From Acidimicrobiia bacterium (lineage in GTDB: Bacteria; Actinomycetota; Acidimicrobiia; IMCC26256; JADLDD01), in the NCBI GenBank assembly GCA_020846855.1, contig JADLDD010000029.1, positions 1-37,875 of the forward strand: DNA of 37,875 bases. The letters run 5' to 3'. Positions 17,771-33,269 of the stretch are shown one piece after another. Within the stretch, counting starts at the first letter, position 1. Every line of letters starts with the position of its first letter. Below the pieces are notes generated by a model that did not search any database, had not been told where the DNA came from, and was given only the letters and a program-made list of their open reading frames with translations. Made by a program: the position numbers and the translations under genes.

Positions 17771-18517
17771 TCAGCCGTCGTCCGTCCGGTCCGGTCCGCG
17801 GCCCTCCGGGGCTCCCGGCGCCGCACCGGCGACCGTCTCCTCCATGGCGAGGAGTGCGAGGCGCTGGAGCGAGCGCTGGTGCACGTACTCGATCACCCGG
17901 CTGACCCGGGGCACGAGCTCGCCGGCCGACTCCGCGGCGTGGTTCCGGAAGCTCTGCAGCTCGTCGGGTTCCCAGTCGCGGCCCCCGCCGTCGGCGAAGA
18001 TCCCCACCACCCGGGCCTGGACGGCCTCCACGCCGGTCACGTAGAGCGCCGCGACCTCGACGATGATCGAATCGGGGATCTCGAGGTCGCGCAGCTCGGC
18101 GACGGCGCGCAGCACGTCGAGGTCGAGGGCGTCGTACGAGTCCCGGCCGAACTCGGCCGGGTCACGCAGGAGTCCGACGCCCCGCAGCGCGTCGACGAGC
18201 GGAGCCGGGAGGCCGGTCGCCGACACCATCTCCTCGAGGGTGTAGGACTCGCCTCCCTCCCGTCCGAACAGCCCCTCGAGCAGGCCGGGGCTCTCGGCGT
18301 CGAAGAACGCCCGGATCGCGGCGAGGGAGAACCGGCGGCGCTGGAGGTCGCGGATCCGGCGGAGTCGGTCGAGGTGCTGGGGGCCGTAGAACTTGGCGCG
18401 CCCCACGCGCCGGGCGGCCGGGAGCAGGTGCTCGCGCTGGTAGAAGCGGATGGTGTCGACCGTTACGCCCGCCATGCGGGCGAGGTCGTCGATCCGCCAT
18501 CCGGATCCCGCGGTCAC
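17771..18517 (-). CDS. MerR-family transcriptional regulator
   Basis: A 248-aa regulator with an N-terminal MerR winged helix (WRIDDLARMAGVTVDTIRFYQREHLLP, residues about 7-33) and coiled-coil region, then a long C-terminal domain without metal-binding cysteines, so it more likely senses an organic ligand or a protein. I place the start at the GTG with GGAGC upstream: the frame stays open to 18697, but that extension runs through three 20-bp tandem repeats (18591-18650) whose unit is not a multiple of three and has shadow-like composition. It is divergent from the 50-aa gene and MFS transporter across a promoter with facing TTGACA boxes. Confidence 0.85.
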   Translation of the reverse strand: MTAGSGWRIDDLARMAGVTVDTIRFYQREHLLPAARRVGRAKFYGPQHLDRLRRIRDLQRRRFSLAAIRAFFDAESPGLLEGLFGREGGESYTLEEMVSATGLPAPLVDALRGVGLLRDPAEFGRDSYDALDLDVLRAVAELRDLEIPDSIIVEVAALYVTGVEAVQARVVGIFADGGGRDWEPDELQSFRNHAAESAGELVPRVSRVIEYVHQRSLQRLALLAMEETVAGAAPGAPEGRGPDRTDDG

Positions 18518-18590
18518 CGAGCTCCGCTCGTCATTCGTCGTCGGCCTCCATGTCGGGCTGCCCGCAGGAGCATCCCCCGACGGCCCCCGG

Positions 18591-18650
18591 CCGCGCCCGC
18601 CGGACCGTGGCCGCGCCCGCCGGACCATGGCCGCGCCCGCCGGACCGTGC
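18591..18650. repeat. Three tandem 20-bp repeats upstream of the MerR gene
   Basis: Three head-to-tail copies of CCGCGCCCGCCGGACCGTGG, the second with A for G and the third ending in C. They lie 74-133 bp upstream of the chosen MerR start. The unit is not a multiple of three, so they argue against a longer MerR protein. They may be slippage products or affect the leader of the regulator's mRNA. Confidence 0.85.
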
Positions 18651-18700
18651 CCCCGCCGGTGCCGGTGCATCCGGGGCCTTCCGGTGACAACCGTCACTGA

Positions 18701-18745
18701 ACTTGACAGCGAATAGACTGAGAGTAAATACTCACAATGTCAAGT
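18701..18745. promoter_or_regulatory. Face-to-face divergent promoter with MerR-type dyad
   Basis: Perfect inverted arms ACTTGACA (18701-18708) and TGTCAAGT (18738-18745) present a consensus -35 box TTGACA on each strand. On the minus strand TCTATT follows after 20 bp, the long spacer typical of MerR targets; on the plus strand TAAATACT follows at 16-18 bp. Inside lies a second dyad, GAGTA-AA-TACTC (18722-18733), a plausible MerR operator. The stretch is notably AT-rich. It should drive the MerR gene leftward and the 50-aa gene rightward, with mutual exclusion. Confidence 0.65.
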
Positions 18746-18788
18746 GGGATCGAGGTCCCCGGGCCTCGGCCGGAGTGTAGGGGGACAG

Positions 18789-18941
18789 ATGGACACGACC
18801 CCGACCACCGAGCTCGACATCCGGACCACCCGGACCACCGAAGAGAAGCGAGCCCTCCGCTGGATGGCACGCCAACTCCGGTGGGAACGCACCCTCGACG
18901 CGCTGCGAGCAGCGCGTCGTTCGTTCCCGAAGGCGGCCTGA
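18789..18941 (+). CDS. Small basic protein of unknown function (50 aa)
   Basis: An ATG-initiated 50-aa frame with AGGGGGA 4 nt upstream. The protein begins MDTTPTTELDIRTT and continues as a basic amphipathic helix (KRALRWMARQLRWERTLDALRAARR). It starts 43 bp downstream of the MerR-type divergent promoter and is followed by a strong hairpin at 18982, so it has its own well-formed transcription unit. I recognise no family. Composition (Thr, Glu, Trp, Lys) differs from shadow frames. It may be the primary MerR target; role unknown. Confidence 0.6.
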   Translation: MDTTPTTELDIRTTRTTEEKRALRWMARQLRWERTLDALRAARRSFPKAA

Positions 18942-18981: not shown

Positions 18982-19015
18982 GATCGACCCGGCTGCCCCC
19001 CCGGCCGGGTCGATC
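18982..19015 (+). terminator. Strong hairpin after the 50-aa gene
   Basis: A perfect 12-bp stem (GATCGACCCGGC / GCCGGGTCGATC) around a 10-nt loop, 40 bp after the small gene's stop and 184 bp before the MFS start. No U tract, as is common in high-GC actinobacteria. Probably ends or attenuates transcription from the MerR-type promoter. The rest of the 258-bp gap shows nothing else I can support. Confidence 0.55.
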
Positions 19016-32060: not shown

Positions 32061-33269
32061 ATGGAGAACCCGGCCCCGGCCGTGAACCTGCTGGACCTCG
32101 ATCTCTACGCCGACGGTCCGCCGCACGACCTCTTCACCTGGCTGCGCAACAACGAGCCGGTCCACTGGCACCCGTCCGACACGCTGGCCGCCCCGGGCTT
32201 CTGGGTCGTGACCAAGTACTGGGACGTGATCAACATCGAGCGCGACGCCAAGCTCTTCTCGTCGGCGGCGCACGGAGCGCTGTTCGAGGAGCCGGCCGAG
32301 GGCACGGATCTGATGCTCATCAATCAGGATCCGCCCCAGCACACCCGGTTGCGGAACCTCGTGGCTCGGGCCTTCACCCCCCGGGTCATGAAGGCCCTCG
32401 AGCCGCACATCCGCGACGCCGCCGGCAGCATCGTCGACCGCGTCCGCGAGAAGGGGGAGTGCGACTTCGTCACGGAACTGGCGGCCGAGCTCCCGCTCGT
32501 CGTGATCTGCGAGCTGATGGGTGTGCCGGTCGAGGAGCGCCACAAGGTCTTCGACTGGTCGAACCGGATGATCGGCCACGAGGACCCTGAGTTCGGGACC
32601 AACGCCGAGGACGGCCGCGTCGCGGCGCTGGAGCTGTACCAGTACGCGCAGGAGCTGGCCGACGACCGCAAGGCCAGCCCCCGCGACGACATCGTCACCA
32701 CCCTGGTCACGGCCGAGCTCGATGGCGAGAAGCTCACCGACGTGGAGTTCAACGCGTTCTTCCTGCTCCTCGCGGTGGCCGGCAACGAGACGACCCGCAA
32801 CCTCATCAGCGGGGGGATGCTCACGCTGTTCGAGCACCCCGACCAGCGGGCGCTGCTCGAATCCGACCTCGACGCCCACCTGCCCGGCGCCGTCGACGAG
32901 ATGCTTCGCTACGTCTCGCCGGTCAAGTACTTCCGCCGCACCGCCACCGCCGACACCGAGGTGCGCGGCGTGCCCATCCGGTCGGGCGACAACGTCACCC
33001 TCTGGTACGGCGCCGCCAACCGCGACGAGGAGATCTTCGACGATCCGCAGACCTTCGACGTGACCCGCAGCCCCAACGAGCACATCGCGTTCGGCGGCCG
33101 TGGCCCGCACTACTGCCTGGGGGTGGCCCTGGCCAAGCTCGAGATCCGCGTGATGTTCGAGGAGATCCTCACGCGCCTCCCAGGCCTCGAGCCGGCGGGT
33201 GGGGCGTCGAGGCTGCGCTCGCTGTTGATCAACGGCATCAAGCACATGCCCGTCCGCTGGGCCGCCTGA
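32061..33269 (+). CDS. Cytochrome P450, CYP125-like sterol C26/27-monooxygenase
   Basis: A 402-aa soluble bacterial P450: I-helix AGNETTRN near residue 240, ExxR in EMLR (Glu280-Arg283), and the heme loop FGGRGPHYCLG with thiolate Cys352. DWSNRMIGHEDPEF, LAVAGNETTRN and the ending LLINGIKHMPV resemble remembered CYP125 more than CYP142, although in M. tuberculosis it is CYP142 that lies next to Rv3521-Rv3523. Expected to oxidise the sterol terminal methyl to the acid that FadD19 activates. ATG start with GGGAG upstream, below a KstR-type box; 7 bp to the DUF35 gene. Confidence 0.9.
   Translation: MENPAPAVNLLDLDLYADGPPHDLFTWLRNNEPVHWHPSDTLAAPGFWVVTKYWDVINIERDAKLFSSAAHGALFEEPAEGTDLMLINQDPPQHTRLRNLVARAFTPRVMKALEPHIRDAAGSIVDRVREKGECDFVTELAAELPLVVICELMGVPVEERHKVFDWSNRMIGHEDPEFGTNAEDGRVAALELYQYAQELADDRKASPRDDIVTTLVTAELDGEKLTDVEFNAFFLLLAVAGNETTRNLISGGMLTLFEHPDQRALLESDLDAHLPGAVDEMLRYVSPVKYFRRTATADTEVRGVPIRSGDNVTLWYGAANRDEEIFDDPQTFDVTRSPNEHIAFGGRGPHYCLGVALAKLEIRVMFEEILTRLPGLEPAGGASRLRSLLINGIKHMPVRWAA

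Follow-up and report, generated by a model that had tools for sequence, protein, structure and literature searches.

The stretch of DNA analysed here, referred to below as the window, comprises 37,875 nucleotides of a draft genome (G000). The genome falls in the order of Acidimicrobiia strain IMCC26256, which consists of uncultured actinobacteria from soil and freshwater. The window carries a gene for a MerR-type regulator and, divergent from it, a gene for a protein of 50 amino acids, here called the microprotein. The two genes are separated by a control region, and the locus has the following features.

17771..18517, minus strand: merR, 248 aa, likely GTG start at 18517; Pfam MerR_1 match with E 3.5e-24; orthologues within the order. 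In the product, residues 8-74 form the winged helix-turn-helix domain, and the C-terminal half consists of a second winged-helix-like unit plus long helices (AlphaFold model, fold matches).
18703..18708, plus strand: -35 box TTGACA of the rightward (microprotein) promoter, outside the palindrome; at least 5 of 6 matches in 27 of 39 loci.
18717-18712, minus strand: TCTATT, 20 bp beyond the facing TTGACA (sequence).
18715..18740: predicted MerR operator, a 26-bp palindrome ACnCTGAGAGTA-NN-TACTCTCAGnGT, conserved in 39 aligned loci.
18717-18738: operator core, with its axis between 18727 and 18728.
18727-18732, plus strand: alternative rightward -10 box AATACT with an 18-bp spacer (promoter scan, 10/12).
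18729..18734, plus strand: rightward -10 box TACTCA (family TAcTcT) with a 20-bp spacer, within the operator; TAnnnT at this place in 21 of 39 loci.
18738..18743, minus strand: facing -35-like TTGACA toward merR (sequence); kept in 14 of 39 loci.
18779..18785, plus strand: ribosome-binding site AGGGGGA (sequence); purine-rich sites precede most homologous starts.
18789..18941, plus strand: microprotein gene, 50 aa, MDTTPTTELD...RWMARQLRWERTLDALRAARRSFPKAA; homologues in 42 genomes at the same place, coding bias, helix model.
18982..19015, plus strand: hairpin with a 12-bp perfect stem and a C-rich loop, a likely terminator without T run (fold z -4.2).

The regulator belongs to an ordinary class, and it is the target that is new. 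The N-terminal MerR winged-helix DNA-binding domain was recognised by MerR_1 in 31 of 31 orthologues, and merR lies on the minus strand to the left of the palindrome, in agreement with the MerR control region that a preliminary description of this DNA had proposed. That description also called it an unusually clear MerR control region in GC-rich DNA; the GC content of the region is 37% in a window of 74% GC. The merR leader contains tandem repeats of about 21 bp (ggccgcgcccgccggaccrtg; window 18584-18650), and the merR frame is open up to a GTG at 18697, so that MerR may have an N-terminal extension of low complexity. A leaderless start of merR at a GTG or ATG near the -35 box was considered and rejected, since in many cases this codon is not in frame or a stop codon comes after it. 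A MerR paralogue encoded in the same genome (contig 87) has no microprotein gene upstream.

The core of the control region (18701-18745, ACTTGACAGCGAATAGACTGAGAGTAAATACTCACAATGTCAAGT) contains the facing TTGACA boxes (18703-18708 on the plus strand, 18743-18738 on the minus strand) and the internal GAGTA-AA-TACTC dyad (18722-18733) that had been described earlier. The window has a single copy of the facing pair ACTTGACA-N-TGTCAAGT, and 100 shuffles have none; the same holds for the 22-bp dyad, which deviates from the family consensus at 2 positions and whose single occurrence is at 18717-18738. When 39 loci are aligned, the near-invariant bases make up the 26-bp palindrome AC..T..GAGTA-NN-TACTC..A..GT, of which positions 18, 21-23 and 28-31 hardly vary. 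The element that is conserved beyond the palindrome is the rightward TTGACA (27/39), followed 20 bp further on by TAnnnT (21/39). Since these rightward boxes are kept and just 14 of 39 loci have the leftward TTGACA, the long MerR-type spacer is assigned to the microprotein promoter. The minus-strand 20-bp spacer of the preliminary description is present, with TTGACA and TCTATT 20 bp apart, but the key A is missing from its -10 box, and as a conserved trait such a spacer is mainly that of the microprotein promoter and not that of merR; no leftward TAnnnT or other -10 box stands out at a consistent position among the 39 loci. Two further conserved boxes in the 39 merR loci, GTCAC directly upstream of the rightward -35 box (window 18693-18697) and CACC about 5 bp past the palindrome, are explained by neither promoter nor operator.

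Spacers of 19-20 bp are typical of MerR promoters and of MerR activation (PMC9909328), and a 26-bp palindrome at a promoter with a 20-bp spacer, as found on the microprotein side, is in line with this family. The divergent regions of MerR, CueR, ZntR and CadR likewise combine a MerR winged helix-turn-helix protein, a palindromic operator, a 20-bp spacer and a divergent gene. The present locus differs from them in that the dyad lies over the -10 box and away from the spacer centre, no metal-sensor domain was recognised, and the only target seen is a microprotein. The dyad axis is placed 9 bp downstream of the centre of the rightward spacer and the operator covers the rightward -10 box; a dyad centred in the spacer, as in the classical arrangement, exists only for the poorly conserved leftward boxes. 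An operator over the -10 box and off the spacer centre suggests repression, with derepression by a ligand. Classical activation, in which the ligand-bound regulator would undertwist the 20-bp spacer and turn on the microprotein promoter as CueR and ZntR do, is a possible but less probable reading. The conserved 20-bp spacer on the microprotein side favours it, since MerR activation typically has such spacers (PMC9909328). A half-site over the -10 box and beyond, with the axis 9 bp past the spacer centre, would however clash with promoter melting; moreover, classical dyads lie within the spacer, and TTGACA is wholly missing in several lineages.

MerR orthologues, most with 44-59% identity, occur in about 43 of the 58 genomes of the order, and 44 genomes have an orthologue or a contig-end fragment of one. 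After omission of one genome (G045) in which the flank lies beyond the contig end, a divergent microprotein gene is found across the same operator in 42 of the 43 genomes with a readable flank. The exception, G001, has an orthologous merR without microprotein, a reductase-type gene in its place and a weak operator. In the first 30 loci that were examined, merR is preceded by a palindrome with this consensus, beyond which an ORF of the small family follows (in L024 the contig ends within the small ORF); because these 30 orthologous loci share the arrangement, it is no chance find. A profile search for the microprotein in 100 related genomes detected the family in 43, of which 42 have it at the merR locus, and in no genome outside the order. 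Among the findings that would refute its proposal, the preliminary description had named a lack of homologues in relatives with the same promoter; the 42 of 43 readable genomes do have such homologues, and next to MerR genes. No conserved gene neighbourhood was found beyond the pair, and no microprotein was found in phages or plasmids. Four loci of the Acidimicrobiia type (L071, L079, L102 and L104) stand in records titled Bifidobacterium breve MAG, names that look wrong.

The microprotein was described beforehand as a basic helical protein of 50 residues that is followed by a strong hairpin, in a compact unit that looked undescribed. The analysis supports this: the net charge is +5, a single helix is predicted for residues 6-45 (AlphaFold, core pLDDT about 97), a hairpin with a 12-bp stem and z -4.2 follows at 18982-19015, and searches of Pfam, NCBIfam, PHROGs and PDB sequences gave no credible match for the microprotein. 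Members of the family are 39-59 aa long and share the consensus A..WI.RQLRWERTL..LR, with invariant W32, E33, L36, R40, A49 and A50 (window numbering). Changes at codon positions 1, 2 and 3 number 116, 117 and 229, and 14 of 15 pairs have a dN smaller than dS, a pattern which indicates that the microprotein is under purifying selection. It is thus hardly credible that the ORF is spurious or encodes a leader peptide. It is short and without a match in the family libraries, as such frames would be, but the protein is conserved throughout the order with dN < dS and with the invariant W, E, L, R and Ala-Ala, and it has a ribosome site and a hairpin of its own. A toxin-antitoxin pair seems improbable, given that the two genes diverge, that one of them encodes a full-length MerR regulator which has an operator of its own, and that nothing toxin-like was seen. 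Literature on MerR regulators of Acidimicrobiia with small proteins was not found, and the merR-microprotein circuit appears to be undescribed so far.

The C terminus of the microprotein ends in Ala-Ala, as it does in 34 of 34 MerR-linked relatives in named genome contigs, and so agrees in sequence with an ssrA-like C-degron; a C-terminal -AA is how ClpXP C-degrons (ssrA-type tails) look. Downstream of the gene, most homologous loci have a strong hairpin, in many cases with a C run in its loop. Hairpins of this kind without T run, the loop often being CCCCCC, occur in the window at 18982-19015 and at 32368-32397, and they may be the usual terminator type of the order. A further perfect hairpin of 10 bp lies within the microprotein coding sequence (window 18896-18919).

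The genomes were scanned for the core palindrome with up to 3 mismatches, using the backward pattern as control. Matches were obtained in 19 genomes, once each except in G024, and in 18 of the 19 the palindrome is situated at the merR-microprotein pair; the backward pattern matched one genome. In the remaining genome, G004, the palindrome is kept next to a diverged MerR and no microprotein was found there. The two matches in G024 result from two copies of the whole MerR-operator-microprotein unit (L118 and L005). As no second target appeared at ≤3 mismatches in the genomes scanned, MerR seems to control only its own locus at that stringency, judged from operator sequences. This bears on the idea that MerR mainly controls neighbouring genes of lipid catabolism and that the microprotein is a by-product. 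The gene 3' of merR in the window encodes an acyl-CoA dehydrogenase, and acyl-CoA- or fatty-acid-type genes (most named by eye and not by family search) recur near merR in some relatives. Nevertheless, the neighbours vary among genomes and the microprotein is kept, a second operator is absent from the genomes, and the hairpin closes the microprotein unit, which makes this idea unlikely.

The C-terminal half of MerR may provide the sensor. In the AlphaFold model its second winged-helix-like unit and long helices have the adenylyl cyclase Rv1264 and its regulatory domain among the best Foldseek matches (E 4e-4, with a high whole-model rmsd of about 14-16 A for Rv1264). Weak matches to Pfam Ad_Cy_reg (PF16701) were obtained for 7 of 31 orthologues, with E 1.5e-4 at best and none for the window protein itself. 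In comparison with Rv1264, where the N-terminal regulatory domain belongs to an adenylyl cyclase, the sensor would here be fused to a MerR DNA-binding domain. The actinobacterial two-domain MerR protein Rv1828/FtsR likewise has an N-terminal MerR domain and a second winged-helix-like domain at the C terminus; VIA-align to the latter gave Z 8.5 over 116 residues at 3.5 A, a Z within the chance range for helical models. Orthology of the window MerR to FtsR (NF050798) was rejected, as its score is 35 bits against a curated cut-off of 150, and its gene neighbour is a different one. Rv1264 binds oleic acid (PMC12505454) and Rv1828 is listed as fatty-acid-responsive (PMC9909328). These likenesses, the Ad_Cy_reg matches and the acyl-CoA genes nearby, each weak alone, make a lipid-type ligand the leading guess.

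Taken in this way, the locus would be a two-gene circuit in which a lipid-responsive MerR represses its own gene and that of a single short-lived helical microprotein, a model to which we give a probability of about one half. A dimeric MerR would sit on the one palindrome between merR and the divergent gene for a single-helix protein of roughly 40-60 aa. Without ligand it would occlude the -10 box of the microprotein promoter, which may already be weakened by its 20-bp spacer, and limit its own synthesis. A fatty acid or an acyl-CoA that binds to the C-terminal half, with its likeness to Rv1828 and Rv1264, would release MerR and lead to a burst of microprotein from a monocistronic, hairpin-ended transcript. 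The -AA tail would cause fast removal by ClpXP, giving a pulse as output, and the W..RQLRWE..L..L helix would in the meantime dock on a helical partner. The two-gene unit, the operator and its restriction to the locus, the coding nature and conservation of the microprotein, its predicted helix and its tail are observations, and the sign of control, the ligand, the degradation and the partner of the microprotein are what we infer in this model. Against it stand the 20-bp spacer, which is the hallmark of MerR activation rather than of simple repression, the retention of merR without microprotein in G001, and the fact that the -AA tail is not general in the TetR-linked relatives described below.

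Away from merR, the matches to the microprotein profile lie mostly beside TetR genes of one type, with the motif RRR..TR..LL.AA..VFar.GFhG.SL.eVA..AGFtKGAVYSNF. Ten such loci were collected (L068, L107, L109, L111, L145-L148, L168 and L200); four of them went into later profiles, and the six found afterwards are also TetR-linked. The small genes are divergent from tetR except in L109, where the gene is upstream on the same strand. Pfam TetR_N was recognised in 3 of 3 TetR-linked loci tested, and an ABC ATPase plus permease downstream in the one locus tested. The TetR-linked relatives are often the first gene of an ABC-2 transporter operon, and their start codon lies at the likely operator. On the basis of sequence, the TetR- and MerR-linked microproteins are likely homologous, although this is unproven because the shared part is about 20 residues.

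The near-perfect co-occurrence of the microprotein with one regulator, in the absence of any other conserved neighbour, and the position of its relatives next to TetR, a second helical regulator family, could also mean that the microprotein is a dedicated partner of the regulator, binding the helical C-terminal half of MerR (TetR in distant relatives) in a feedback loop. We consider this rather doubtful. A profile comparison gave no sign that the microprotein mimics the C-terminal helix of MerR, and the versions next to TetR are frequently the first gene of an ABC transporter operon, so that the partner could be a different one.

More widely, profile matches from other classes of the phylum were disregarded as noise when E exceeded 1e-3, with the exception of a resemblance to the C terminus of ArsR proteins. 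In some ArsR repressors the C-terminal helix W..R.RWE.RLD.LE spaces W, WE and L similarly (A7 profile match at E about 1e-3), but the microprotein is free-standing, 40-60 aa long and without a DNA-binding domain, and the likeness may be convergent. Examples are L190 and L191, apparent ArsR-type repressors whose C-terminal helices (AxWIxxYRxRWExRLDxLE) resemble that of the microprotein. Tentatively, one may envisage a new family of regulator-linked microproteins, in which a free helix (W..RQLxWExxLxxLR) encoded across the operator from helical one-component regulators of two unrelated families, MerR and TetR, would be their partner or a general effector of lipid-type signals; the microprotein is possibly the first seen member of such a family.

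Most studied MerR regulators have enzymes or pumps as targets. Here the sole target seen is a microprotein that a whole bacterial order has kept, and its operator did not turn up at any other place in the genomes. The locus thereby adds an unannotated protein family, linked to TetR systems, to a poorly cultured group of bacteria, and it offers a small and clean system for studying how a lipid-type signal could become a pulse of a short-lived helix.
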